Below the pieces are notes generated by a model, which had not been told where the DNA came from, did not search any database, and worked only from the letters and a program-made list of their open reading frames with translations. Shown here piece by piece: positions 2,074 to 36,071 of a stretch of 64,000 bases of DNA. Within the stretch, counting starts at the first letter, position 1. Every line of letters begins with the position of its first letter. A program made the position numbers and the translations under genes. This DNA comes from Thermoanaerobaculia bacterium (GTDB taxonomy: Bacteria > Acidobacteriota > Thermoanaerobaculia > UBA5066): the NCBI GenBank assembly GCA_022071945.1, contig JAJVIN010000050.1:1-64000 (forward strand). The letters are read 5' to 3'.

Positions 2074-4464
2074 TCAGTGTGCTGCCCTGAGGGACCCTGC
2101 CGTTGACACGACGCCCGTGATCGCGGAGAGGGGGTACGAGGCGTTGCGGTTCTTCACGGCCGCGCCGAAGGAGCCGAACTCGGCGAAGTTCGTCGTGGAA
2201 GCGTAGTCAGAGGAGATCGTGCCCTTCAGGCTGGATCCGACGTACGACAGGAGCGCCATCCACTCCTTCAGCTCCAGAACACCCGGACCCTGCGGGGTCG
2301 CATTGATCCGGTTGCCCAACAAGCCCGGCATGTCGGATGCCGAGATCGAGTCCTTGCCTGTCGCGGACTTGTAGGCCGTGATGGCCGTTCCGAACTCCGA
2401 CTCCACGGCCCCGATCAGGAGGACGGCATACATGTCAGCGGCCACGCGGACGCGGCTCGTGCTCGAAAGGGCCGTCGCCGCGCCCGTGTTGTTGGCATCT
2501 GTGGGGGCGAATCCAGAAACGGTGTCGATGGCGGCAATGGCCCTGGAGAAGAGCAGGGGCTCCAGGATTCCGAGAGAGCCGGCCCCCGCCACGTAATAGC
2601 TGACCGCCGAGTTCTCCAGGGCATGTGAACTGAACATCTGCCCGTCGTTCAGGGTCACCATCGCCACCGCATACGGGTTGTTGGCCAGGAAGGCTGCGTA
2701 CAGGCTCGCCCCGTAGTCCTTGTCGAGCTTCGCGATGGCCCCGAGGGCCTGCTGGGCGAGGACCGAGCCTCCCGTGGCCTTCTGGCTCGTCACCGACAGG
2801 ACGGCGGCAGCCGTCGCGAATTTGAAGAAGGCGTAGCTTTCCGTCGGCTTCAACGTGTAGCGGATCCCGGACAGGTTGAGGTAGTACTGAGAGGCCGCGA
2901 GATTCGTCTGTCCCAGGAGCTGGAGGGCGCAGAGCTTCTTGACGTCCTCGAGCTCGAGGTAGGCGGAAATCAGCGGATAGCCGACGGGTAAGAGCTGCGA
3001 GGTGTCGGGCGAGATGCCGAGTGGCAGGACGTTGTAGATGTCGGCGAAGGTCAGGGGAACGCCCGCCGGGAGGTCCCCACGCAAGACGCCCGTGGCGACG
3101 ACCGCGATCTGAAACGGATTGAAGTCGTAGCCCGGCAGCTTCGAGGGGTCGCCTCCGGCCGCGGCCAGTGTCTGGGCGATGATGCCGTTCGGGACCGTCC
3201 GGACGGCGTCCGCGGCGAGATTGCCCAGTCCGTTCGGGGCCAGGACCGCATTCGCCTCGTTGGAGATCATCGGCTGCGCGGCCACGCCCACCGGGTGATA
3301 GACGCCCTTCGCGAGGTCAGAGGGCTTGTAGTCGGGGAACACCTGCGAGAAGACGGGACCGAGGCCCACGTTAAGGGCCTGGTCGGCCATCTTGACGGCC
3401 GCCGCGACGGCCAGGCTGGGAGAGATGCCGAGGCTCGTCAGCGTCGCGTCCGTCATCGGCACGTTGCTGGAGGCGGAGAGCGAGGTGGATCTCGTTTCCG
3501 CGTTGTAGGTGAGGTCGAGCCTGAAGACATGCGTTCCGAAGGCGCCCGCGTTGATGATCTGGGTGTTCCATGTGCCGTTGGCGACCGTCCGGGCGGTGGG
3601 CAAGGGCGTGTGGGTGTGTCCGGAGGCGATCACGTCGATGCCCCGCACGTGGCGAGCCAGCTCGACGTCCTCGCCCGAGGTGCCCGAGGCGTCCGTGCCG
3701 GAGTGGGACAGCACGATGACGACATCCACGTCCTTGTTGTTGCGCATGTCGTCCACGAGACCCTGAAGCGTTCCGTACTGGCTTGCCGGGTCCGTGAAGG
3801 TCACTGGCCCCGAGGCGGGCGCGGTGATGGCGGCCTCTCTGCCCATCAGTCCGAGATAGCCGACCTTCGCTCCGTTGGGAAGCTCCTCGATCCGGGAGGT
3901 CTGGATCAGCCGGCCCTCACCCACGAAGGGCGCGAGTGTGGTGTCTCCGTTGAGATTCATGTTGGTCGCCACGATGGGCGTGCTGAACCCGAAGGAGGTC
4001 CGGGCGGCGTGGAGGATCTGGGCGAGCCCCGGAGTCGTGTAGTCGAACTCGTGATTCCCGAGCGTGACGCAGTTGTAGTGCATCGCGTCGAGGAAGAAGA
4101 GCGCCAGGGGCTGTTGGCCGAGGGTGAGGTCGTAGAGGGTCCCCATCGTGAAGTCCCCCGAGTCGACCAGGACGACGGGGCCGTCGGCGGTCGCCCGCAC
4201 GTAGCCGACGTAAGACGCGATGCGCGCGTAAGCGCCGGTCGCGCTCATCGCGGTGGTCGCGTTGACGTCGAACCCGACGTGTCCCGCCCCGTTGCAGCGG
4301 TGATGGACGTCGGTCGTCTGCAGGATCGTGATCTTCGCGTCCGCGGCGGCTGGGCCCCTGGAGGGGGCGATCGCCTCCGCGTTCCATGCGGAAAACGGAA
4401 GAGAAACCGCCACGAATAGAACTACGGCAGAGAGAAGGGACCCCGGGCTCTTCTTGGAACGCAT
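2074..4464 (-). CDS. Secreted 5'-nucleotidase / 2',3'-cyclic phosphodiesterase family protein
   Basis: A 796-residue metallophosphoesterase of the UshA/CpdB type that should release phosphate from extracellular or periplasmic nucleotides. After a signal peptide (LLSAVVLFVAVSLPFSAW, ending near NAEA) the dinuclear-metal motifs appear in order: LQTTDVHH, VLVDSGDF, TLGNHEFD, VIVLSHSGTD and IASGHTHTPL. All canonical Asp/His/Asn ligands are present. The C-terminal nucleotidase domain contains GNLAADAVR (compare GNLxxDA) but the protein is about 250 residues longer than UshA, with an Ala/Ser-rich tail of unknown role. The start at MRSKKSP gives a normal signal peptide; the in-frame ATG ten codons upstream would spoil it. 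Confidence 0.9.
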   Translation of the reverse strand: MRSKKSPGSLLSAVVLFVAVSLPFSAWNAEAIAPSRGPAAADAKITILQTTDVHHRCNGAGHVGFDVNATTAMSATGAYARIASYVGYVRATADGPVVLVDSGDFTMGTLYDLTLGQQPLALFFLDAMHYNCVTLGNHEFDYTTPGLAQILHAARTSFGFSTPIVATNMNLNGDTTLAPFVGEGRLIQTSRIEELPNGAKVGYLGLMGREAAITAPASGPVTFTDPASQYGTLQGLVDDMRNNKDVDVVIVLSHSGTDASGTSGEDVELARHVRGIDVIASGHTHTPLPTARTVANGTWNTQIINAGAFGTHVFRLDLTYNAETRSTSLSASSNVPMTDATLTSLGISPSLAVAAAVKMADQALNVGLGPVFSQVFPDYKPSDLAKGVYHPVGVAAQPMISNEANAVLAPNGLGNLAADAVRTVPNGIIAQTLAAAGGDPSKLPGYDFNPFQIAVVATGVLRGDLPAGVPLTFADIYNVLPLGISPDTSQLLPVGYPLISAYLELEDVKKLCALQLLGQTNLAASQYYLNLSGIRYTLKPTESYAFFKFATAAAVLSVTSQKATGGSVLAQQALGAIAKLDKDYGASLYAAFLANNPYAVAMVTLNDGQMFSSHALENSAVSYYVAGAGSLGILEPLLFSRAIAAIDTVSGFAPTDANNTGAATALSSTSRVRVAADMYAVLLIGAVESEFGTAITAYKSATGKDSISASDMPGLLGNRINATPQGPGVLELKEWMALLSYVGSSLKGTISSDYASTTNFAEFGSFGAAVKNRNASYPLSAITGVVSTAGSLRAAH

Positions 4465-4688
4465 GGCCGGATTATGCAGGACATTTCCCGTCAAGTCTTT
4501 ACGCGGATGGCTAGCCGGAAGACACCGTGCGTAAAGGGAGGGGCGCGCGGACGGGACTCCTCTCCAGGCTCTGGTCTTTCGGAGCCCTTTCGTTGTATGA
4601 ACAGCGAAACGCTCCGCCTCCTTCTTCTCCGGTCACAAGGACAGGGTGAGGTCTCCGAGCGAAGCGCCAAAGCGAGGAGTGTGGATCA

Positions 4689-5549
4689 GTGATAAAGGGT
4701 GATGTGGCCAGCGATCACGTGCCGATCGGGGCGCCCAGACGGCAAGTCACGACCGCCATCGACGCCGTGCTCGTGATTGCCAACCTCGCGGTGATGGCGG
4801 GCTGGCTGACGGGCCACCCGCTCCTCGACTCGCCGTCGGAGCCGGTGATGTCGCTCTTCACCGCCCTGTCCCTGCTCATCATGGTGCTCGTGAGGCAAGC
4901 GAGGATCCACGTCGAGACCTGGCCGATGGCCCTCAGCCTTGCCATGAGCGGATTGGTCCTGGGCGGCAACGCCTCCTCGATCCTGATGCTCGCGGTCATG
5001 CCTCCAGAGCTCTGGGCGAGCGTGTCGGGCCTCGTCCTGACCTCGACCATGACATCGATCGGCCTCATCCTTTTCTGCTGCTACGACTTCGTCATCGCGC
5101 TCAGAGAGACGCCAGAATCCGCCTTCATCATGGATGACATGCTCATTCACCTCGCCCTCGTTCCGGGCGGTCTGAGCTTGCTCGGCTACCTTCTGGGGAA
5201 CCCCACCTATCTGAGCGTCCACGCGGATCCCAGGGTCGGGATTTCTCTTCTGGAAATGGTTCTCCTCGGCCTCTATGCCGTGAGCGCGATCGTCTCGAAT
5301 CCGCGTCTATTCCTCTGGCGCTTCCTTTCCTCGGGCTGGACGAACCGGCTCGTCTTCGCGTTCCTGTTCGCCAACCAGTTCGCGGCCCCGGTCGTGGTCG
5401 CCCTGCTCCTCTCCACGCGCGGCTCCGCGGGGCCGGGGATCGAGCTCTTCGTGATGCTCGCGGGGGTCGTCACCACGCTCTCGTTCCTCCTCCTGCAGGC
5501 ACGGCTTCATCGGCGTGTCCTTCGCCCCCTCGAGCCCGCGAACCGCTGA
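4689..5549 (+). CDS. Polytopic membrane protein, unknown function
   Basis: A 286-residue protein with about eight hydrophobic segments, e.g. IDAVLVIANLAVMAGWL, LFTALSLLIMVLV, LVLTSTMTSIGLILFCCYDF, ISLLEMVLLGLYAVSAIV, LVFAFLFANQFAAPVVVALL and LFVMLAGVVTTLSFLLL. No enzyme motif, kinase or transport signature is recognisable. It resembles the membrane half of sensor proteins but no signalling domain follows. The first usable codon is GTG at 4689; GTG 4704 or later starts are possible, so the N-terminus is uncertain. A tiny frame (4597-4692) ends in a GTGA overlap with this start, which may be chance. Confidence 0.65.
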   Translation: MIKGDVASDHVPIGAPRRQVTTAIDAVLVIANLAVMAGWLTGHPLLDSPSEPVMSLFTALSLLIMVLVRQARIHVETWPMALSLAMSGLVLGGNASSILMLAVMPPELWASVSGLVLTSTMTSIGLILFCCYDFVIALRETPESAFIMDDMLIHLALVPGGLSLLGYLLGNPTYLSVHADPRVGISLLEMVLLGLYAVSAIVSNPRLFLWRFLSSGWTNRLVFAFLFANQFAAPVVVALLLSTRGSAGPGIELFVMLAGVVTTLSFLLLQARLHRRVLRPLEPANR

Positions 5550-20284: not shown

Positions 20285-22297
20285 ATGCCTGCCCAGAACG
20301 CGAGGAGGGCCGCCCGGCTCTTGGCCGGTAAGGAGCCCGCCTCGCGAGAGGCGCCCGGCTCCTCAGCGCCACTTCGATACCGCCTCCTGATCGCGGCAGC
20401 GGTCGTCTTCGCGGTCTTTCTCGGGTTCCATCGCTGGCCGGTCGTCACCTCGGAACCCGGCGGGTCCTTCACCGACCCCGATGCTCTCTTCCACGTCCGG
20501 CGGGTGGTGCGGACCATCGAGAGCCGGACCCTCCTTCCGCCCGTCTTCGATGCCTTCGAGAACTTCCCGGAGGGAGGGCGCGCCGTCTGGCCTCCTCTCC
20601 ACGATGCGGTCCTGGCGGTTGCGGCCCGGCTCGGCGGATCGACGCCCTCGGAACCTCGGAAGGGACTCCTTTTCACCGCGGCCGTTCCAGTCGCGGAGCT
20701 GGCCGCCATCGTCGCCTTGGTGGCGCTCCTGGTCGGGAAGGCGGGGAGCGAGAGCGGCGCCGCTCTGGCCGCGTGGCTCGCTGCCCTGACACCGGCCTTC
20801 GTCCGCCGCTGTTCGTTCGGTGAAGTCGACCACAACGCGACGGAGATCCTGGGCTGGGTCCTGCTGTTGCTTCTGGCCATCGGCCTGTCACGTCGAAAGA
20901 CCCCGGCCTGGCGAACGGATCTTCTGCTGGCGGCGAGCTGGGGTGGAGCCGTCCTTCTGGCGCTCGGGTTCCAGGCTGGGCTCATCCTCGCTGCCGGTGT
21001 CCTCTCGGCGGGCGTGGCGGTTCTCGAGTTCAGCGACCGCGAGTCCGGGGGGCTCTTGCTCTCTCGGCTGTCGTTCGGGTATGCCCTGGCGGCGGTGAGC
21101 CTCCCGTTCCTGGCCGCCCTGCGCGTCCAGCCCGATCCGGCCGATCCGTGGCGTCTGGGTCCGGTCTACTCGCTGATTCTGGCCCTTGCGGCGGGTGCGT
21201 CCGGGCTGGTTTCGGCCGTCTTCGGCCTTCGTGCCGGGGTGCTCGGACGTGCGCGGCACGCCCTCGCGGGGCTCGGCATCCTGACTGGCGCGGCGTGCGC
21301 CGCCCTCTCGCCATCTGGCGCCTGGACGGGCCTCTTGCGAGGGCTCGGATTCGTCGGCTCGCGCGATCCGTGGCTCTCGACAATCGACGAGTTCCAGCCG
21401 CTCGTCTTCTCCCGGCTGAGCCTCTTCGCGACGGCGCCCGCGCTGCCCGCCGGGCTCGCCGCCCTGACTCTGATCCTGGCGTGGAAGCAGAGACGGTCCT
21501 CGATTCGAGCCTGGCTCGTGCCGGCGACGGTTTTGATACTCCTCGCGGTCCTCGCGATCGCGCAGAAGCGGTTCGTGCCCGTCGCGGCGGTGTTCGGGGC
21601 CCTGACGGCAGGGGTGGCCTGGAAGGACCTCGCGCTCGAGACGGTGCGGCGCCGCGCGTTGCTCGGTGTGGCGGGCGTGTGCCTCCTGACCACGGCCGAC
21701 TACACACCGTCTTATGTCCTGGGAACGCTGGGACAGGCGCTCGGAGGGGAGACGACACCCCGGGCGGTCGCCCGGGCGATCGCGGAGGTGACGCCGCTGC
21801 AACCGGCGGAGCCTTCCTGGGGGATCCTGGCGCCGTGGGACTTCGGGCACGTGATCCTCGGCCGGAGTGGACGCGCGGTCGCGCTCAACAACTTCGGCAA
21901 CTGGCACCCCGGCTTCGCGCGAAAGGCGCGGATCCTCCTGGAGGGTTCGCCGGTCCGGGCCGTGGCCGAGATGGAGGCGCTGAGGCTCCGCTACATCGCG
22001 GTGACGTGGCCGGGGAACGTCGTGCCCTCCGCCGTGACGTCTCTCGGGCTGAGCGAGGCGGCGTTCGAGCCCGTCCCGCCCATTGGGGACGGCCTGCCGG
22101 TTTCGGGGACGGGTTCCGCGCTCGAGCGAACGCTCACCGTGCGTCTCTTCGTCCGGGACGGACGGCCGTACGAGTTCGACTCACCCGCCGATCGGGCGGC
22201 GCTCCTCCGTTTCCGCAAGGTCTGGCAGATGCCGCCCGCCCCGGACGCTCCGTTTCCCGACGCGAAGCTCTTCGAGCTGATGCCGGCCGGGGGATGA
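20285..22297 (+). CDS. STT3/PglB-like membrane glycosyltransferase (GT-C fold)
   Basis: A 670-residue protein: short cytoplasmic N-terminus, about a dozen hydrophobic helices (residues 31-480), and a soluble C-terminal part. Features match oligosaccharyltransferase-type GT-C enzymes: an Asp motif in the first external loop (D64-P-D66, SFTDPDALFH), a DH..E motif (D182-H183 to E187, FGEVDHNATE), the KRFVPVAAVFGA helix, and W518-D519-F520-G521 (ILAPWDFGHVI), which aligns with the WWDYG peptide-binding signature but lacks its first Trp. It is therefore either a divergent protein or lipid glycosyltransferase. No glycan-assembly genes adjoin. It converges on gatD with a 7-base gap. Confidence 0.75.
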   Translation: MPAQNARRAARLLAGKEPASREAPGSSAPLRYRLLIAAAVVFAVFLGFHRWPVVTSEPGGSFTDPDALFHVRRVVRTIESRTLLPPVFDAFENFPEGGRAVWPPLHDAVLAVAARLGGSTPSEPRKGLLFTAAVPVAELAAIVALVALLVGKAGSESGAALAAWLAALTPAFVRRCSFGEVDHNATEILGWVLLLLLAIGLSRRKTPAWRTDLLLAASWGGAVLLALGFQAGLILAAGVLSAGVAVLEFSDRESGGLLLSRLSFGYALAAVSLPFLAALRVQPDPADPWRLGPVYSLILALAAGASGLVSAVFGLRAGVLGRARHALAGLGILTGAACAALSPSGAWTGLLRGLGFVGSRDPWLSTIDEFQPLVFSRLSLFATAPALPAGLAALTLILAWKQRRSSIRAWLVPATVLILLAVLAIAQKRFVPVAAVFGALTAGVAWKDLALETVRRRALLGVAGVCLLTTADYTPSYVLGTLGQALGGETTPRAVARAIAEVTPLQPAEPSWGILAPWDFGHVILGRSGRAVALNNFGNWHPGFARKARILLEGSPVRAVAEMEALRLRYIAVTWPGNVVPSAVTSLGLSEAAFEPVPPIGDGLPVSGTGSALERTLTVRLFVRDGRPYEFDSPADRAALLRFRKVWQMPPAPDAPFPDAKLFELMPAGG

Positions 22298-22304
22298 CGC
22301 CCAG

Positions 22305-23696
22305 CTACTTCCAGTGGCCCCGGATCCACTCCTGGGTTTCGGGAAGGCCGCCCTGCATGATGAGGTAGCCGTTGTGCGGCTCGCGGGCCGTGATCTCGTG
22401 AGAGACCGGGGTCCGCATCATCCTCATCACTTCGTTCCGGTCGTCGGTGTGGGCGAGAACCCACGAGAGTTTCATCAGGGCCGTCTCGGGCAGCATGTTT
22501 TCGAGAGGCACGATGCCGATGTCGAGGAGATCGCGTCCGGTGTCGTAGACGTACATCTGGGCGAAGCCCCAGAGGGTCTGGACCGTCATCACGACGTGAA
22601 CCCCCGCCTCCACCGCCCGCTTGATGGCGGGGTAGAGGGGCTTGTTGATGTGCCCGAGTCCCGTGCCGGCGATGACGATGCCGCGGTAGCCCTTTTCCAC
22701 GAGCGCGTCCACCAGATCGGGACGCATGCCCGGGTAGTAGTAGAGGATCGTCGTCCGGTCGTCGTAGACAGCGTCGACCTGCACCTTTCGCGACCGGTCC
22801 CGCTTCCGGAAGTCCCGCGAGAGATAGGTGAACCCGTCGCGGCCGACCATCGCGATCGGGATGTCTCCGATGGTCCGGAAGGTCGACCGGTAGGAGCTGT
22901 GCATCTTGCGGCAGCGGGTCCCTCGGTGGAGAAGCCCGTACCGGTCGGAGGTCGGGCCGAACATGCAGATCATCACCTCCGCGATGTCGCAGTACGCGGC
23001 CGCCCGGACGGAGTGGATGAGGTTGAGGGCGGCGTCGGACGAGGGGCGGTCGCTCGAACGCTGCGACCCGACGAGGACGATCGGCACCGGAGTGTCCTGG
23101 ACCATGAAGGAGAGGATGGCGGCGGTGTGTCCCATCGTGTCCGTGCCGTGGCCGATGACGATCCCGTCGGCTCCGGCCTCGATCTCGTCGCCAATCGCCC
23201 GGGCCAGGACGACGTAGTTCTCCATGGCCATGTTCTCGGAGAAGACGCCGAAGATTTTCTTGGTGGTCAAATTACAGATGTCCGCGAGCTCGGGCACGGC
23301 GCCGTAGAGCTCGCCGGGGCTGAACGCGGGGATGACGGCGCCGGTCCGGTAGTCGAGGCGAGAGGCGATGGTCCCACCGGTCCCGAGGAGCGTCACCTTC
23401 GGGAGGTTCGGCCGTGCGGGGAAATCCTTTTCCGGGATCTTGTAGACCGCTTCCTTGTAGCCGGTCTCGACGACGCCCGTGATGCGGCTCGCGTGGACGC
23501 CGACGTTGTAGCCGTTCTTCAGCTTCAGGACGACGTGCAGGTCGTCGAACGTCTCGCTTCTGGGCAAGATGACGCCCGTAAAGACGCTGCCCGCGTCGTT
23601 CGTGAGCTCCACCTCGCTCCAGACCCTCACTCCGAGCCGGGCGAGAGTTTCTCGGGCGAGACCCTTGTACCCCTTCAGCGGGTCGACGGTACTCAC
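22305..23696 (-). CDS. gatD: Glu-tRNA(Gln) amidotransferase subunit D (archaeal type)
   Basis: A 463-residue asparaginase-like glutaminase that would supply ammonia for Glu-tRNA(Gln) conversion. The N-terminal ~95 residues form the GatD-specific beta-barrel (VELTNDAGSVFTGVILPR). The asparaginase domain has LLGTGGTIAS with T109, GHGTDTM with T185/D186, and K264 (RCRKMHSS): the full catalytic set expected for this family. The start is GTG at 23694-23696, overlapping the gatE stop by four bases (GTGA), so the two subunits are translationally coupled. GatDE is the archaeal route and is rarely reported from bacteria. A simple L-asparaginase is excluded by the N-terminal domain and the partner gene. 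Confidence 0.93.
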   Translation of the reverse strand: MSTVDPLKGYKGLARETLARLGVRVWSEVELTNDAGSVFTGVILPRSETFDDLHVVLKLKNGYNVGVHASRITGVVETGYKEAVYKIPEKDFPARPNLPKVTLLGTGGTIASRLDYRTGAVIPAFSPGELYGAVPELADICNLTTKKIFGVFSENMAMENYVVLARAIGDEIEAGADGIVIGHGTDTMGHTAAILSFMVQDTPVPIVLVGSQRSSDRPSSDAALNLIHSVRAAAYCDIAEVMICMFGPTSDRYGLLHRGTRCRKMHSSYRSTFRTIGDIPIAMVGRDGFTYLSRDFRKRDRSRKVQVDAVYDDRTTILYYYPGMRPDLVDALVEKGYRGIVIAGTGLGHINKPLYPAIKRAVEAGVHVVMTVQTLWGFAQMYVYDTGRDLLDIGIVPLENMLPETALMKLSWVLAHTDDRNEVMRMMRTPVSHEITAREPHNGYLIMQGGLPETQEWIRGHWK

Positions 23697-25663
23697 GCTT
23701 CACCTCCCGTGGCCGAAAGCAGGACTTCGAGAATGGCGATGACGTCGCGCGCGGGGACCTTGCCGCGTAAGGAACGCATGGCGAGCCCGGTGGCGTGGCG
23801 CAGGAGCCGGCCGGGAGAGGAGTCGTGGCCCGTGGTGTGAGCCCCGGCGACGACGCCGAGGAGGCTGTCCCGCCAGGCGGGCGGCGGGTCGCCGAGTCCG
23901 AGATCCGAGAGGGTCGCCTCGAGCGGGTCGAGAGGGCGCCGGCCAGTCTCGCGCGCGATGCGCTCCCACGCCTCCTTCAGGACGGGCTTCTGTGAGAAGA
24001 ACCGGAACATCTCGACCCAGCGTTCGTGGGGGACCGCCTCGACGGGGACGCCCTTCCGTTTGAGGAACTTGAGTTTCTCGCCCACGAAGAAGCCGGCGTC
24101 GCGCTCGTTCGCGCCGGCCGCGACGAGCTTCTCGACGAGGGTGGCTCCCCCCCGGCGAATCAGGAAGTGCGCCGTGTTTTTCGGGATTCCGAGCGCATCC
24201 CACCGCGCCTCGCGATCCCAGGGACGTGCTGGCAAGGAGGCCCGAAGGCCCTCCACTCTCTCTCGCGTCACCCGCGTGGGCGGGCTGTCGGTATCGGGGT
24301 ACATGCGGTCGGGGCCGGGCAGGATCCGCTCGAAGTCGGTCGAGCCATCCTCGAAGGGCTGCCGCGTCTCGTTCGGAACGCCGCCCACGGCATCGATGTA
24401 CCGGAGGCGGATCTCGGCCACGGCGGTTCTCGTGTCTTCATCGGGTCCCCAGACCACGACGACGGCATCGTCCGGCCCGCAGCGGAGGCGGCCGCGCACC
24501 TTGCGCAGCTCGGCGAGCCAGCCGGAGTAGTCCGGCCACTTCTCGCTGTGAAGCAGGATCGGGCTCTGGTCGAGGCCCGCGATGACGCGGATGCGGCCGG
24601 CCAGCTCGTGAGCGAAGGTCAACTCGGGCTGGGTCGGCCAGGCGAGGGTTCCGGCGAGGCCCTTCAAGCGAGCCGCCCTCACGCAGAAGGGACCGCTCCC
24701 GAGCTCGAAGCCCGGCCGGCGCTTCTCCCCGGCCACGAAGCGGTCCCAGCCCTCGCGGGTGAGAAACGAGAGGGGAGACGCCGTGAACAGGGCGGTCACG
24801 TCGGCGCTGTCGACCTCGATCGATCTCGCATCCACGAATCCGCGGCGGATGAGCTCGTCCTTCAGCTTGAGGAGATTGACTTGCCGGATGGCTTCTCCGT
24901 GCACGAGGCGCCTGGCCCAGCTCGCCTTCGGGACTCCCTTGATCTCGACGCGCCGGCCGCCCCTGACGGAAACGTTCACGTCCTGGCGGCTCGCCCCGAT
25001 TCCGACCCTCACGTGTCCGGTCGAGCGGCAAACGCGTCCGACGAGAAGGATGGCCTCCTCCACTTCCTCGGGAGTCAAGAGGTCGGGGCCCGTCACGGTC
25101 TCGATGAGGGGCATGCCGAGACGGTCGGTGCGCCAGACCACGAGATGGCCCTTGTCGGAGACTTCACGGCAGGAGTCTTCTTCAACGCTCACCTGGGTGA
25201 TCGAGATCGTCCGCCCTCGAAACGGGAGCCGGCCATTCACGCCGACGATGGCCGTGCGCTGGAAGCCCGTCGGAATGGAGCCGTCGAGGTACTGCTTGCG
25301 GGCGATGTGGACCTCGTCGACGATGTCGCAGCCGAGCATCAGGCACTGCTCGATGGCGATGTCGACCGCCTGCTGGTTCACGAGGAACGGAGGGGTGTCG
25401 TCCATCTCGTACGTGCAGACGTTGTCCTCGTGCAAGAGGTAGACGATGTTCTTCTTGGTCTTGAACTCCATCAGCGCCGTGCCGTCATACTCCCCGAGCT
25501 CCGAGAGGGTCGGGCGCATGTGCCTGAGGACCTCTCCGTCGTGGGTCTCGGTGTAGAGGCCCGCCGGACAGCGGCAGAACATCTTGTTGGGCGTGAGGAG
25601 TTGCTGGTGGACTTCGAGGCCGGCGATGAGACCGGCCTCCCTGTAATCGATCGATCCCGCCAC
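23693..25663 (-). CDS. gatE: Glu-tRNA(Gln) amidotransferase subunit E (archaeal type)
   Basis: A 656-residue GatB/GatE family kinase-amidotransferase that would phosphorylate Glu-tRNA(Gln) and accept ammonia from GatD. The N-terminal catalytic part starts AGLIAGLEVHQQL and contains KQYLDGSIPTGFQRT, ITQVSVEEDSC and RTDRLGMPLIE. An inserted AspRS-like GAD domain (about residues 275-420) separates it from the family segment RILPGPDRMYPDTDSPP, which distinguishes GatE from GatB. The helical and YqeY-like tail ends near residue 656. The GTG start follows GGGAGG with good spacing. It is first in a two-gene operon with gatD. Confidence 0.94.
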   Translation of the reverse strand: MAGSIDYREAGLIAGLEVHQQLLTPNKMFCRCPAGLYTETHDGEVLRHMRPTLSELGEYDGTALMEFKTKKNIVYLLHEDNVCTYEMDDTPPFLVNQQAVDIAIEQCLMLGCDIVDEVHIARKQYLDGSIPTGFQRTAIVGVNGRLPFRGRTISITQVSVEEDSCREVSDKGHLVVWRTDRLGMPLIETVTGPDLLTPEEVEEAILLVGRVCRSTGHVRVGIGASRQDVNVSVRGGRRVEIKGVPKASWARRLVHGEAIRQVNLLKLKDELIRRGFVDARSIEVDSADVTALFTASPLSFLTREGWDRFVAGEKRRPGFELGSGPFCVRAARLKGLAGTLAWPTQPELTFAHELAGRIRVIAGLDQSPILLHSEKWPDYSGWLAELRKVRGRLRCGPDDAVVVVWGPDEDTRTAVAEIRLRYIDAVGGVPNETRQPFEDGSTDFERILPGPDRMYPDTDSPPTRVTRERVEGLRASLPARPWDREARWDALGIPKNTAHFLIRRGGATLVEKLVAAGANERDAGFFVGEKLKFLKRKGVPVEAVPHERWVEMFRFFSQKPVLKEAWERIARETGRRPLDPLEATLSDLGLGDPPPAWRDSLLGVVAGAHTTGHDSSPGRLLRHATGLAMRSLRGKVPARDVIAILEVLLSATGGEA

Positions 25664-31560: not shown

Positions 31561-31655
31561 GCTGGCATGGCTTGTGCTTTTCGTCACATCTGGAGGCGCG
31601 TGCCTTCCGGGGGGAACTCTCGGGAAGGTCACGAAAGCGGGGCGGGAGGATGACG

Positions 31656-34600
31656 ATGAGAGAGTGGATGCGCAAACAGACGGGGTGGCTGGCGGCACTG
31701 ATCCTGGTGCTCCTGCATGCGGGCCAGGCCGCCGCGCAGATCGCGGCGGCGCACGTGTATCACAATCACATGCCCAACTTCTGGCCGTACTACGACACGT
31801 CGGCGTACGCCGCGACGGCTATCGGAGCGCCCGTCCGCTACATGTACGACGGCTCGGTCATACAGTTGAAGAACAGCCCTCCGGCCGGTTACAGCTACTA
31901 TCTCCCTCCCGCCCTCGGGGGCGGAATCATGCCGCACGACGACCTGGTCACGTACTACAGCCACAATGCGAAGTACGGGGCCTACCAGTACTGGCCCTGG
32001 CAAGTGGCCCAGGATATGAACGCCAATGCCAACACGGGCCAGGTCCACGTCACGATGTCGGGCGCCGTCGTGAACAATGTCAACAACATCATCCAGACCG
32101 GGACGATATCCGGGAACTACAACAACCCGAGCTGGGGCCAGCCCTGGGCGGGCGCCTTCAGTAGCCTCCGGACGCCGGGCGGCAACCGCAGCCTCGACCT
32201 GATTCACTTCACGGGACACCACTCCATGGGCCCGCTGGTCGGGAGCGAGTACTTCCTGAAGGACCTGATCTACCAGAACGCGACCCTTGCCCAGAACTAT
32301 TTTCTGGGCGGGAACTTCGTCTCCTCGAAGGGGTTCTTTCCGACCGAGCTCGGCTTTTCCGAGAGACTCATCCCGACCCTCGCCAAGCTCGGGATCAAGT
32401 GGTCGGTCCTCGGGAACAACCACTACTCCCGGACGCTGCGTGACTACCCGTACGACACCTACTACCCGAACAAGGACACGCTCGTTTCGCCTCCGAATCG
32501 CGCCGACCTGCAGAACGTGAGCAGCGTGGGGAGCTGGGTGACGCAGCAGATGGCTCACGAGCAGCAGCAGATCGTCAACAAGTACCCCTTTGCCTCGACT
32601 CCCCACTGGGTTCGCTACGTCGATCCCTCGACCGGGGCGGAGAGCCGGGTGGTGGGGATCCCGGTCGACCAGTCGGGATCCTGGCTCGAGGGCTGGGAAG
32701 GACAGGCGACGGCCTCGGACCTCGTGCCGTTCCAGGGCCTCGTCCCGCAGAAGCAGTTCTTCGTCATCGCCCACGACGGGGACAACTCGTCTGGCCGCGC
32801 CGGCTCGGAGAGCACATGGTACAACGGCCGCTCCGTGACCTGCACGAATGGGGTCCAGTGCCTGGGAATCGACGAGTACCTCATCTCCAACACGCCTCCC
32901 GCGTCGGACGTCGCGCACGTCCAGGATGGATCCTGGATCGACACGCGGGACTCCTCCTCCGACCCGAGCTGGTTCCACTGGCACCTGCCGTTCGGCATCT
33001 GGAAGGGGCAGTTCAGCGAATTCAACCGGGTCACGGGGATGAACCTCGCGCCCAAGACGAACCTCGACGGACTCCAGGAAGGAATGACGGTCTCCCTCGA
33101 GTACGGCTGGCACTACCTGGAGCGGAACTTCGCCCTCCTGCAGGCCGCCCTCAACTTCGCCAAGACCGCCGAGCAGATCTGGCTCGAGAAGAACCCGAAC
33201 CACTGGAAGCCCACGACCGCCCTCGACAACCAGATCACCTACCCCGGCAACCAGCTCAACCCCTGGATGATCTCCTACCCGGTGAAGGGCGACGCCAACA
33301 ACAACTACGCGGGCGGCGCGAACCCGGCCGAACTCGGCTGGTACTTCCTCTTGCCGGCGATGGACTCCGGCTTCGGGTACTACGACGAGAACAAGGACGA
33401 CTCGGTCAAACCGACCCTGGCGTTCAACAACTCCCTCTACTTCTCCAAGCCCTACGTCCAGGCGAACATCGCGAGCGACAAGACGGGGCCGTCGGTCTGG
33501 TGGCCGCAGCGCTGGCCCTACAACCCGGGAAGCGTGAACGCGGACAAGTCTGAGGGGTGGACGGTCCACCACTTCGATCACAACTTCGCGGTCTACACGT
33601 ACGCCTTCGACGTGAGCGGCATCCAGACGATCAGGGTCAGGATCCGGACGCACACGAACAAGAGGGCCGACGCGACGGACAACACCTTCCGGGTCTATGA
33701 CCCGGTGGCGCTCCAGGCAGCAGGCGTGCCGAACGTCGACCCCTCGCGGGTGGGCGCGTGGCAGGACTACACGATGACCCGCCGCGACCTGCGGCCCGTC
33801 ATGAACGGCGTCGACTGGGTCCAGCCGACGAAATCGACGCTCCAGGTCCTCCCGGCCCAGGAAATCGGCGACCTCTACTACGCCTACATCGGCGCCTACC
33901 GTGACCAGCTCCTCGACTACTACGTCGAGGCGACCGACTGGAGAGGCAACGTCACGAAGTCCGAGATCCAGACGGTCTACGTGGGAGCCGGCCGCTACAA
34001 CCTCGTGGGCGGGAAATACGTCGAGGACTACAACGGCGCCATCAAGGGAACCTATCCGTTCCTCGTCGTCGACACCCAGTCCCCGACGGTGCCGGCCAAC
34101 CTCGCGTCCGGCACCCAGACGGACCGGAGCGTGACCCTCAACTGGACTCCGTCGGCGGACAACGTTGGCGTGACGGGCTACCGGATCTTCCGCGACGGCG
34201 TGCAGGTCGCTACCTCGCCATCCGCGAACTTCACCGACACCGGCCTTTCCCCGTCGACCAGCTACGCCTACACCGTCAAGGCCCACGACGCCGCCGGCAA
34301 CGTTTCGAGCGCCAGCGCGGCGCTGAGCGTTACGACCCGGCCGCCTGACACGACGCCCCCGTCGATCCCCACCGGCTTGACGAAGGGAACGGTCACCGCG
34401 GGCTCCGTGTCTTTCTGCTGGACCGCTTCGACCGACAACTACGACGTCGCGAGCTACGACGTCTTCAGGAACGGAACGAAGATCGGCTCGAGCGCGACGA
34501 CGTGCTACACGGACAACTCCGTCAGCCCCTCGACCACGTACAGCTACAGGGTTTCGGCCAAGGATGCCGCCGGAAACTCCTCCGCCCAGAGCGCGGCGCT

Positions 34601-36071
34601 CTCGGTCACCACCGCCGCCGGAAACGTTGCGACCGTCTACTACTACCGGACCGACTGGCCGTCCGTGAACGTCCACTACAGTCCCACGGGCGGGAGCTGG
34701 ACCTCCGTCCCAGGCGTCGCGATGGACGCCGCCTGTACGAACTACAAGGTGAAGGTCATCAACCTCGGGAGCGCCACGGGCCTCCAGGCCGTGTTCAACA
34801 ACAACTCGGGAACCTGGGACAACAACGGCGGCCAGAACTACACCCTCGGGACGGGCATTTCCCTGGTCAAGAATGGCGTCGTGACGGCCGGCTCCAACCC
34901 GTGCAGCACCTCGGTCGACACCGAGCCTCCCACTGTTCCTGGAAACCTGACGGCCGGAACCGTGACGTCGAGCTCGGTGCCGATGTCCTGGCAGGCGGCC
35001 ACGGACAACAAGGGCGTGACGGGCTATCAGATTCTCAGGAACGGAGCCGTCCGCGCCACGACGGCGTCGCTCTCCTTCACGGACACGACGGTCGCGGCCA
35101 ATACGGCCTACACCTACAACGTCAAGGCCTATGACGCCGCCGGCAACTACTCGGCCGCGAGCAACACACTTGCCGTGACGACTCCGAAGGTTCCGGACAC
35201 CACGCCCCCGACGGTCCCGACGGGCCTGAATTCCGCCAACGTGACCGCGACGAGCGTGATGATCCGCTGGACGGCCTCGACGGACGACTCGGGCACGGTC
35301 GTCGGCTACAAGGTCTTCCGTGGAGGCACGCAGGTCGGGACGGCCACCACCACGAGCTTCACGGATTCGGGGCTCACGGCCGCCACGGCCTATAGCTACA
35401 CCCTGAAAGCCTACGACGCGGCCGGGAACACATCCGCCGCCAGCGCGGCTCTCTCGGTCACGACCTCGAGCGCCGTCCAGAACAAGGTGACCGTCTACTA
35501 CAAGAAGGGCTTCCCGAACACCTGCTTCCACTACGCCCCGGCTGGCGGGTCGTGGACCACGGTGCCGGGTCCCCAGATGTCGGCATCGGACGTCTCCGGC
35601 TACCTCGAGATCACCGTGACGATCGGCACGGCCACCTCCATACAGGTCGCCTTCAACAACTGCAGCGGACAGTGGGACAGCAACAACGGCGCGAACTACT
35701 CATTCGGCGTCGGGACGTGGAACTACGACGCCCTGAGGAATCCTAAGATCGCCTCTGGTGTTCCGACGGCGCCGGCGAACGTCGCCGTGACGTTCAATGG
35801 GAACGCCACGACCTCCTGGGGACAGAACGTCTTCGTGGTGGGCGACATCCCGCAGCTCGGGGCGTGGAACGTCGCCAATGCGATCCCCCTGTCGTCGGCG
35901 GCGTACCCGGTCTGGTCCGGCACGGTCCAGATCCCGTCGAGTACGCCCGTGCAGTACAAGTACATCAAGAAGGATGGAAACGGGAACGTGGTCTGGGAGA
36001 ACGGGGGTAACCGTTCGTTCACGACTCCCTCGTCCGGGACCGTGACCCGGAACGACAGCTGGCAGAACTGA
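31656..36071 (+). CDS. Secreted multidomain amylase-like glycoside hydrolase (GH57/GH119 type) with FN3, CBM25 and CBM20 modules
   Basis: A 1471-residue exported enzyme. After a signal peptide (LAALILVLLHAGQAAAQ) the catalytic region begins with the H-x-H motif H36-N-H38 (AHVYHNHMPNFW) and contains a probable nucleophile E231 (FFPTELGFSERL) and acid D374 (IAHDGDN), as in clan GH-T. Binding modules follow: FN3 (about 806-895 and 898-985), CBM25 (990-1085), FN3 (1088-1178 and 1180-1270), CBM25 (1275-1365) and terminal CBM20 (1376-1471). This order suggests raw-starch binding and resembles Bacillus GH119 alpha-amylase. ATG 31656 has GGAGG six bases upstream. Substrate and exact family are inferred. 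Confidence 0.88.
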   Translation: MREWMRKQTGWLAALILVLLHAGQAAAQIAAAHVYHNHMPNFWPYYDTSAYAATAIGAPVRYMYDGSVIQLKNSPPAGYSYYLPPALGGGIMPHDDLVTYYSHNAKYGAYQYWPWQVAQDMNANANTGQVHVTMSGAVVNNVNNIIQTGTISGNYNNPSWGQPWAGAFSSLRTPGGNRSLDLIHFTGHHSMGPLVGSEYFLKDLIYQNATLAQNYFLGGNFVSSKGFFPTELGFSERLIPTLAKLGIKWSVLGNNHYSRTLRDYPYDTYYPNKDTLVSPPNRADLQNVSSVGSWVTQQMAHEQQQIVNKYPFASTPHWVRYVDPSTGAESRVVGIPVDQSGSWLEGWEGQATASDLVPFQGLVPQKQFFVIAHDGDNSSGRAGSESTWYNGRSVTCTNGVQCLGIDEYLISNTPPASDVAHVQDGSWIDTRDSSSDPSWFHWHLPFGIWKGQFSEFNRVTGMNLAPKTNLDGLQEGMTVSLEYGWHYLERNFALLQAALNFAKTAEQIWLEKNPNHWKPTTALDNQITYPGNQLNPWMISYPVKGDANNNYAGGANPAELGWYFLLPAMDSGFGYYDENKDDSVKPTLAFNNSLYFSKPYVQANIASDKTGPSVWWPQRWPYNPGSVNADKSEGWTVHHFDHNFAVYTYAFDVSGIQTIRVRIRTHTNKRADATDNTFRVYDPVALQAAGVPNVDPSRVGAWQDYTMTRRDLRPVMNGVDWVQPTKSTLQVLPAQEIGDLYYAYIGAYRDQLLDYYVEATDWRGNVTKSEIQTVYVGAGRYNLVGGKYVEDYNGAIKGTYPFLVVDTQSPTVPANLASGTQTDRSVTLNWTPSADNVGVTGYRIFRDGVQVATSPSANFTDTGLSPSTSYAYTVKAHDAAGNVSSASAALSVTTRPPDTTPPSIPTGLTKGTVTAGSVSFCWTASTDNYDVASYDVFRNGTKIGSSATTCYTDNSVSPSTTYSYRVSAKDAAGNSSAQSAALSVTTAAGNVATVYYYRTDWPSVNVHYSPTGGSWTSVPGVAMDAACTNYKVKVINLGSATGLQAVFNNNSGTWDNNGGQNYTLGTGISLVKNGVVTAGSNPCSTSVDTEPPTVPGNLTAGTVTSSSVPMSWQAATDNKGVTGYQILRNGAVRATTASLSFTDTTVAANTAYTYNVKAYDAAGNYSAASNTLAVTTPKVPDTTPPTVPTGLNSANVTATSVMIRWTASTDDSGTVVGYKVFRGGTQVGTATTTSFTDSGLTAATAYSYTLKAYDAAGNTSAASAALSVTTSSAVQNKVTVYYKKGFPNTCFHYAPAGGSWTTVPGPQMSASDVSGYLEITVTIGTATSIQVAFNNCSGQWDSNNGANYSFGVGTWNYDALRNPKIASGVPTAPANVAVTFNGNATTSWGQNVFVVGDIPQLGAWNVANAIPLSSAAYPVWSGTVQIPSSTPVQYKYIKKDGNGNVVWENGGNRSFTTPSSGTVTRNDSWQN

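Follow-up and report, generated by a model that had tools for sequence, protein, structure and literature searches.

A gatE-gatD pair in a Thermoanaerobaculia bacterium belongs to a bacterial GatDE clade that occurs beside glutaminyl-tRNA synthetase

In the available parts of two papers, the tRNA-dependent amidotransferase GatDE is described as found today only in archaea (PMC9499178, 2022) or as restricted to archaea (PMC8007984). The former also states in these parts that glutaminyl-tRNA synthetase (GlnRS) is missing from all archaea, that archaeal GatDE recognises the pair A1-U72 of tRNA-Gln, and that the lack of GlnRS is explained by co-evolution of GatDE and tRNA-Gln. As far as the accessible text of a survey from 2014 goes, no bacterium was known with both routes to Gln-tRNA-Gln (PMC4206432). 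Our literature search, which mostly did not extend to subscription papers, yielded no report of a bacterial GatDE; the automatic database names of the genes described here may well already be GatD and GatE. The stretch analysed in this study (the window) comprises positions 1 to 64,000 of contig JAJVIN010000050.1 from an Acidobacteriota genome (Thermoanaerobaculia bacterium, GCA_022071945.1; 6.17 Mb in 69 contigs, 96.21% complete, 0.27% contamination). It carries a gatE-gatD pair, which had been read from the sequence as an archaeal-type GatDE in bacterial surroundings (referred to as the original prediction). At a probability of roughly 45%, our preferred reading is that bacterial GatDE is a laterally spread, stand-alone gatE-gatD bicistron, which provides a second or clean-up route beside GlnRS by rescuing Glu-tRNA-Gln.

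The gene gatE (positions 23,693 to 25,663, minus strand) encodes 656 amino acids with the GatB/GatE catalytic domain, a GAD insert and a helical and YqeY-like tail, corresponding to the kinase/transamidase subunit of Glu-tRNA amidotransferase. It is followed on the same strand by gatD (22,305 to 23,696; 463 amino acids), which codes for the asparaginase-like, ammonia-producing subunit with an N-terminal GatD barrel and a C-terminal tail of about 25 amino acids. According to the coordinates of the open reading frames, the stop codon of gatE and the GTG start codon of gatD overlap by 4 bases (23,693 to 23,696, minus strand), which suggests translational coupling. Together with this overlap, matches above the cut-offs of curated GatE models (NF003107, 462.2 bits, cut-off 456; TIGR00134, 374 bits, cut-off 319.55) and GatD models (TIGR02153, 492.8 bits, cut-off 324; NF003217, 494.6 bits, cut-off 310) confirmed a true gatE-gatD pair. 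Bacterial GatCAB is related insofar as its GatB subunit and GatE have the catalytic domain and the type of reaction in common. An assignment of the window GatE as GatB of a GatCAB was nevertheless ruled out, since it reached 108.5 bits with the GatB model TIGR00133, far below the cut-off of 314.8, and since it possesses the GAD insert.

The GatB/GatE catalytic domain (GatB_N, PF02934) was the sole Pfam match of the window GatE. Among 20 aligned bacterial GatE proteins, GatB_N was found in 20, GatB_Yqey in 15 and GAD in 8 (E 0.1). In an AlphaFold model (mean pLDDT 78.8, pTM 0.77; residues 30-91 poor), the domain order is catalytic cradle, GAD insert, and helical and YqeY-like tail. The best fold match of this model is 2d6f, the crystal structure of M. 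thermautotrophicus GatDE with tRNA-Gln (Z 34.1 over 515 residues), and 1zq1 from P. abyssi gave Z 30.3; both are also the best solved sequence relatives of the window GatE and GatD. Residues 279-429 (approximately) match the GAD domain of aspartyl-tRNA synthetase (AspRS) with Z of about 12, and the tail showed a weak fold match to a YqeY protein (Z 6.9). The insert had been expected to include the segment RILPGPDRMYPDTDSPP (approximately residues 446-462). The insert itself is present, but this segment does not belong to it, because it lies just past the end of the insert and aligns with a segment of GatB. H19, E161 and E188 are invariant in 20/20 bacterial GatE proteins and align with H15, E157 and E184 of M. 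thermautotrophicus GatE, which we take to be metal or active-site residues.

The barrel and the complete asparaginase set proposed for GatD were both recovered. Pfam matches comprise GatD_N (PF18195), Asparaginase (PF00710) and Asparaginase_C (PF17763), and T109, T185, D186 and K264, presumably the catalytic set of asparaginases, are present and invariant in 16/16 aligned bacterial GatD proteins. The core resembles type I/II L-asparaginases (TIGR00519, 364.9 bits, cut-off 260.5), but the protein scores higher with the GatD-specific models, carries the GatD barrel and is encoded directly downstream of gatE. Alignments of GatD to 1zq1 and 2d6f end at residues 442 and 438, respectively, leaving the C-terminal tail, whose motif occurs in 73 of 82 bacterial GatD proteins of at least 440 amino acids. 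In comparison with three relatives, the ratio of nonsynonymous to synonymous substitutions was about 0.2-0.33 for gatE and about 0.1-0.2 for gatD; these low values indicate purifying selection.

Hence, the bacterial form resembles archaeal GatDE in its two subunits, domain order, GAD insert, tail and active-site positions, but forms a clade of its own with the signature SIPxGFQRT and with the C-terminal tail of GatD. The signature was detected in 109 of 113 rows and is absent from the sequences of the two archaeal crystals. A further difference is that the bacterial pair lives with GlnRS, here also with GatCAB, and that the tRNA-Gln of the host has U1-A72.

Coexistence with GatCAB, one of two options left by the original prediction, was observed: GatA (544 bits) and GatC are encoded on one contig (C25) and GatB on another (C29), none of them on the contig of gatDE. 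The second option, replacement of GatCAB or GlnRS by GatDE, was not borne out, as the search of the genome revealed GatA, GatB, GatC and also GlnRS (778.6 bits, cut-off 425.8); the window genome therefore lacks no GlnRS for which GatDE could stand in. The gene of GlnRS adjoins gltX, encoding glutamyl-tRNA synthetase (GluRS), on contig C5, which also carries a tRNA-Gln(CTG) gene. Both tRNA-Gln genes of the genome (CTG and TTG) have U1-A72. In addition, a GluQRS-like gene and genes for one bacterial-type AspRS, LysRS, AsnRS, AsnB and AsnA were identified, so that the direct routes to Gln-tRNA and Asn-tRNA, GatCAB and GatDE coexist in this genome. A seemingly redundant amidotransferase beside GlnRS and AsnRS is also described for Bdellovibrio and Deinococcus in the available text of PMC4206432; there it is GatCAB and serves asparagine, whereas here a GatDE-type enzyme is added as a second one.

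The association with GlnRS extends to the phylum. TIGR00134 was matched above cut-off (GatE+) in 56 of 396 Acidobacteriota genomes. GlnRS exceeded its cut-off in 51/56 GatE+ genomes versus 189/340 GatE- genomes, one of which (G090) contains an incomplete GatE that stays below cut-off (p 9e-8, shared descent ignored). The other five GatE+ genomes comprise two with GlnRS fragments and three without GlnRS (G012, G303 and G338; 75, 84 and 76% complete). If a single TIGR00134 match is taken as no detectable GatB, 33 of the GatE+ genomes are GatB-, and all 33 have GlnRS (32 above cut-off, one, G276, as a fragment). GlnRS above cut-off was lacking in 142 of the 302 GatE- genomes in which a GatB-type protein was matched. 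In Acidobacteriota, absence of GlnRS thus often accompanies GatCAB and does not accompany GatDE.

These results bear on the explanation that the pair is a plain lateral copy of archaeal GatDE performing its archaeal job in place of GatCAB or GlnRS. The sequence and fold family would fit, and a few genomes outside the phylum have GatE without a full GlnRS match. Of 24 such outside genomes, which were scored for GlnRS only, 15 had it above cut-off and two partially; the remaining seven, including one archaeon and one complete chromosome, had none or a small or distant piece. Nevertheless, GlnRS in 33/33 GatE+GatB- Acidobacteriota, GatCAB together with GlnRS in the window genome and the separate bacterial clade speak against a plain copy, which is disfavoured for the window genome and very unlikely altogether. 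The complete chromosome just mentioned, CP070718.1 of a Phycisphaerales bacterium (G412, locus L110), encodes GatE, and its only resemblance to GlnRS is a small C-terminal piece. It is a candidate for a bacterium in which GatDE may be a real route to Gln-tRNA.

Every part of a tRNA-amidotransferase has been kept, so that amidation of misacylated tRNA is the likely activity predicted for the bacterial enzyme, and Glu-tRNA-Gln would be the most parsimonious substrate. In the proposed mechanism, GluRS, being the single one or in some genomes a second GluRS, would form Glu-tRNA-Gln. GatD would free ammonia from glutamine or asparagine, and the ammonia would pass via a channel to GatE, which would activate and then amidate the glutamyl group. 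The resulting conversion to Gln-tRNA-Gln would avert mistranslation. Because GlnRS accompanies GatDE and charges tRNA-Gln directly, GatDE is best read as a second or clean-up route, which is perhaps conditional. It would then have to accept tRNA-Gln with U1-A72 in place of the archaeal A1-U72.

Several observations weigh against rescue of Glu-tRNA-Gln. None of the three tRNA-Gln genes read, two from the window genome and one from an Aminicenantes genome (G216), has A1-U72, the pair recognised by archaeal GatDE. If GatDE provided a working route to glutamine, GlnRS should sometimes be lost, which is not so in the 33 GatE+GatB- genomes (GlnRS missing in 0/33 versus 142/302 GatE-GatB+ genomes; p 5e-9, descent ignored). 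The presence of GluRS in all of 80 chosen genomes (30 GatE+GatB-, 18 GatE+GatB+, 20 GatE-GatB- and 12 others) speaks for the rescue, but its sequence gave no help. The position corresponding to R350 of E. coli, which we take to be the discrimination residue reading C36 of the anticodon, was compared after four short or divergent matches (L251-L254) had been left out; the row of one genome (G280) is gapped. Arg occupies this position in 23/23 GluRS rows of GatE-GatB- genomes, and other residues occur only together with GatE or GatB. The window genome also has Arg, as do 6/7 control rows from genomes with GatB and without GlnRS, which must misacylate. Since these controls carry Arg, the residue cannot mark specificity here and was rejected as a marker. 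A GluRS2-clade enzyme as partner of GatDE was likewise rejected: it occurs in 7/30 GatE+GatB- genomes, with the anticodon-reading Arg changed in 5/7, which by itself would favour the rescue, and in 4/20 GatE-GatB- genomes, so that there is no association.

The latter four genomes (G002, G018, G032 and G045; loci L202, L189, L209 and L205) contain the GluRS2-clade enzyme without GatE or GatB, and all keep the Arg, unlike most of the clade.

A changed substrate would be an alternative to Glu-tRNA-Gln. GatDE might amidate Asp-tRNA-Asn formed by a non-discriminating AspRS and so allow asparagine to be made on tRNA; according to the available text of PMC4206432, GatCAB has this function in Deinococcus and Bdellovibrio. 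Of the 80 chosen genomes, 63 had AsnB and 14 had AsnA above cut-off. Neither enzyme reached its cut-off in 9/30 GatE+GatB-, 3/18 GatE+GatB+, 0/20 GatE-GatB- and 1/12 other genomes; the contrast of 9/30 to 0/20 gives p 0.006 with descent ignored, and the nine genomes fall into four families. One of them is the Aminicenantes genome mentioned above, of which 2.396 of 2.817 Mb (85%) were read. In this part AsnRS, LysRS, one bacterial AspRS and a tRNA-Gln(CTG) with U1-A72 were found; GatB was absent, and the nearest match to GatA was a distant amidase. At the position of Leu30 of E. coli AspRS, the window genome has His, presumably the non-discriminating state known from Pseudomonas. The AspRS of the Aminicenantes genome has Met instead, and 21/30 GatE+GatB- genomes as well as the window genome possess an asparagine synthetase. 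Lost asparagine synthesis may also mean plain auxotrophy, which fits the Aminicenantes genome equally well as the possible tRNA-dependent role of its GatDE. Moreover, archaeal GatDE is described for glutamine only in the available parts of PMC9499178. We consider amidation of Asp-tRNA-Asn unlikely. The wider idea that GatDE, rather than forming Gln-tRNA in the place of GlnRS, has changed its job towards another misacylated tRNA, most temptingly Asp-tRNA-Asn, appears rather improbable. In that case, Aminicenantes-type bacteria that lack AsnA, AsnB and GatCAB would in some instances use this archaeal-type enzyme to make all their asparagine on tRNA.

Beyond Acidobacteriota, a scan of a genome collection gave at least 570 confirmed GatE loci. 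The best 80 of these cover 17 named phyla of bacteria; two of the 80 carry the label Thermoplasmatota, and for 15 no NCBI phylum is given. The search patterns favour the bacterial form, so that archaea are under-sampled. In 29/30 Acidobacteriota loci gatD adjoins gatE on the same strand. Of 80 other loci, 61 have gatD, with the order gatE-gatD on one strand in 58, and several of the 19 loci without gatD end near gatE. The distances of GatE and GatD over 85 loci are correlated (Mantel r 0.87, 0/999 permutations).

The phylogeny rests on a quick tree of GatE that contains 56 rows of the bacterial type, two of which are Thermoplasmatota, and three further archaeal rows. The outgroup, one GatB, sits on a very long branch, and the root is not reliable. 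A long branch (Shimodaira-Hasegawa-like approximate likelihood ratio test 98) separates the bacterial-type rows from GatE of P. abyssi, M. thermautotrophicus and Natrinema; the archaeal rows number five in all, and the Natrinema row is a 448-amino-acid piece with a long branch. The clade of the window GatE mixes Acidobacteriota and Myxococcota, and one family (f29) holds GatE of two distant clades (L033 in G016 and L013 in G068), which points to replacement or to independent gains. Both findings support lateral spread among bacteria, as does the lack of a flanking gene common to the gatDE loci of relatives. The lateral transfer suggested originally is therefore supported as far as exchange among bacteria is concerned; an archaeal donor is not, as the bacterial rows and the two Thermoplasmatota stand apart from the three archaeal ones. 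A scan of viral contigs with the P. abyssi protein revealed no relative.

A tblastn search of plasmids gave one archaeal place, positions 3001-4890 (approximately) of Natrinema thermotolerans CP031304.1 (L383). The gatE-like gene on this megaplasmid is unannotated, and its frame is apparently broken, the longest piece from the start being 448 amino acids.

The distribution is patchy even within the family of the window genome. GatE is above cut-off in the window genome and in G176, which has exactly the same gatDE stretch as RHKY01000019.1 (Acidobacteria bacterium ACB1, Acidobacteriota), and below it in G055 and G098, which are both 99% complete. Clustering of the flanking proteins of 80 loci showed no widely common family near gatDE; the largest cluster, judged by eye to be a PQQ-like repeat protein, covers 9/80 loci, and the second largest comprises five close relatives. 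The neighbours of the window pair were absent around gatDE in 14 other loci, which include at least two pairs of the same place (L073/L257 and L074/L258). This lack of a conserved neighbour would fit an enzyme that is self-sufficient.

An accessory role would account for the patchy and mobile distribution of a pair that lives beside GlnRS. GatDE might, for example, provide a bypass during inhibition of GlnRS or shortage of glutamine, or it might amidate some other aminoacyl-tRNA or acceptor. The split within the family, the laterally mixed tree, the lack of common neighbours and the GlnRS association are consistent with such a role, which we regard as rather doubtful, since the whole tRNA-binding architecture is kept and no neighbour hints at another pathway.

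The surroundings of the pair in the window are bacterial, as had been proposed. GltB, GltD and a PAS/GAF kinase were identified among the flanking genes by domain-model searches. The GC content of gatE (0.678) and gatD (0.652) corresponds to that of the window (0.662), and the GC content at third codon positions of both genes likewise fits the neighbours. Most relatives carrying the pair are metagenome-assembled genomes, which could raise the suspicion of an archaeal contig introduced by binning or assembly. This artefact deserves hardly any credence in view of the bacterial neighbours, the matching GC values, the contamination of 0.27% and the occurrence of the pair in 56/396 genomes, including a single-contig genome (G097).

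Two further proteins encoded in the window are an STT3-like membrane protein (20,285 to 22,297, plus strand), convergent with gatD, without Pfam match and with 106.6 bits to the archaeal oligosaccharyl transferase model TIGR04154 (below the cut-off of 450), and a large protein (31,572 to 36,071, plus strand) that matches GH57 weakly and contains three fn3, two CBM25 and one CBM20 domains.

The bacterial GatDE clade and its link to GlnRS did not appear in the literature searched. A broad bacterial clade that exists beside GlnRS and on tRNA with U1-A72 makes directly testable both the view of an archaea-only enzyme that co-evolved with tRNA-Gln and the survey's statement on bacteria with two routes to Gln-tRNA-Gln, and it provides enzymes with which the purpose of a second route to Gln-tRNA, or to Asn-tRNA, can be asked.

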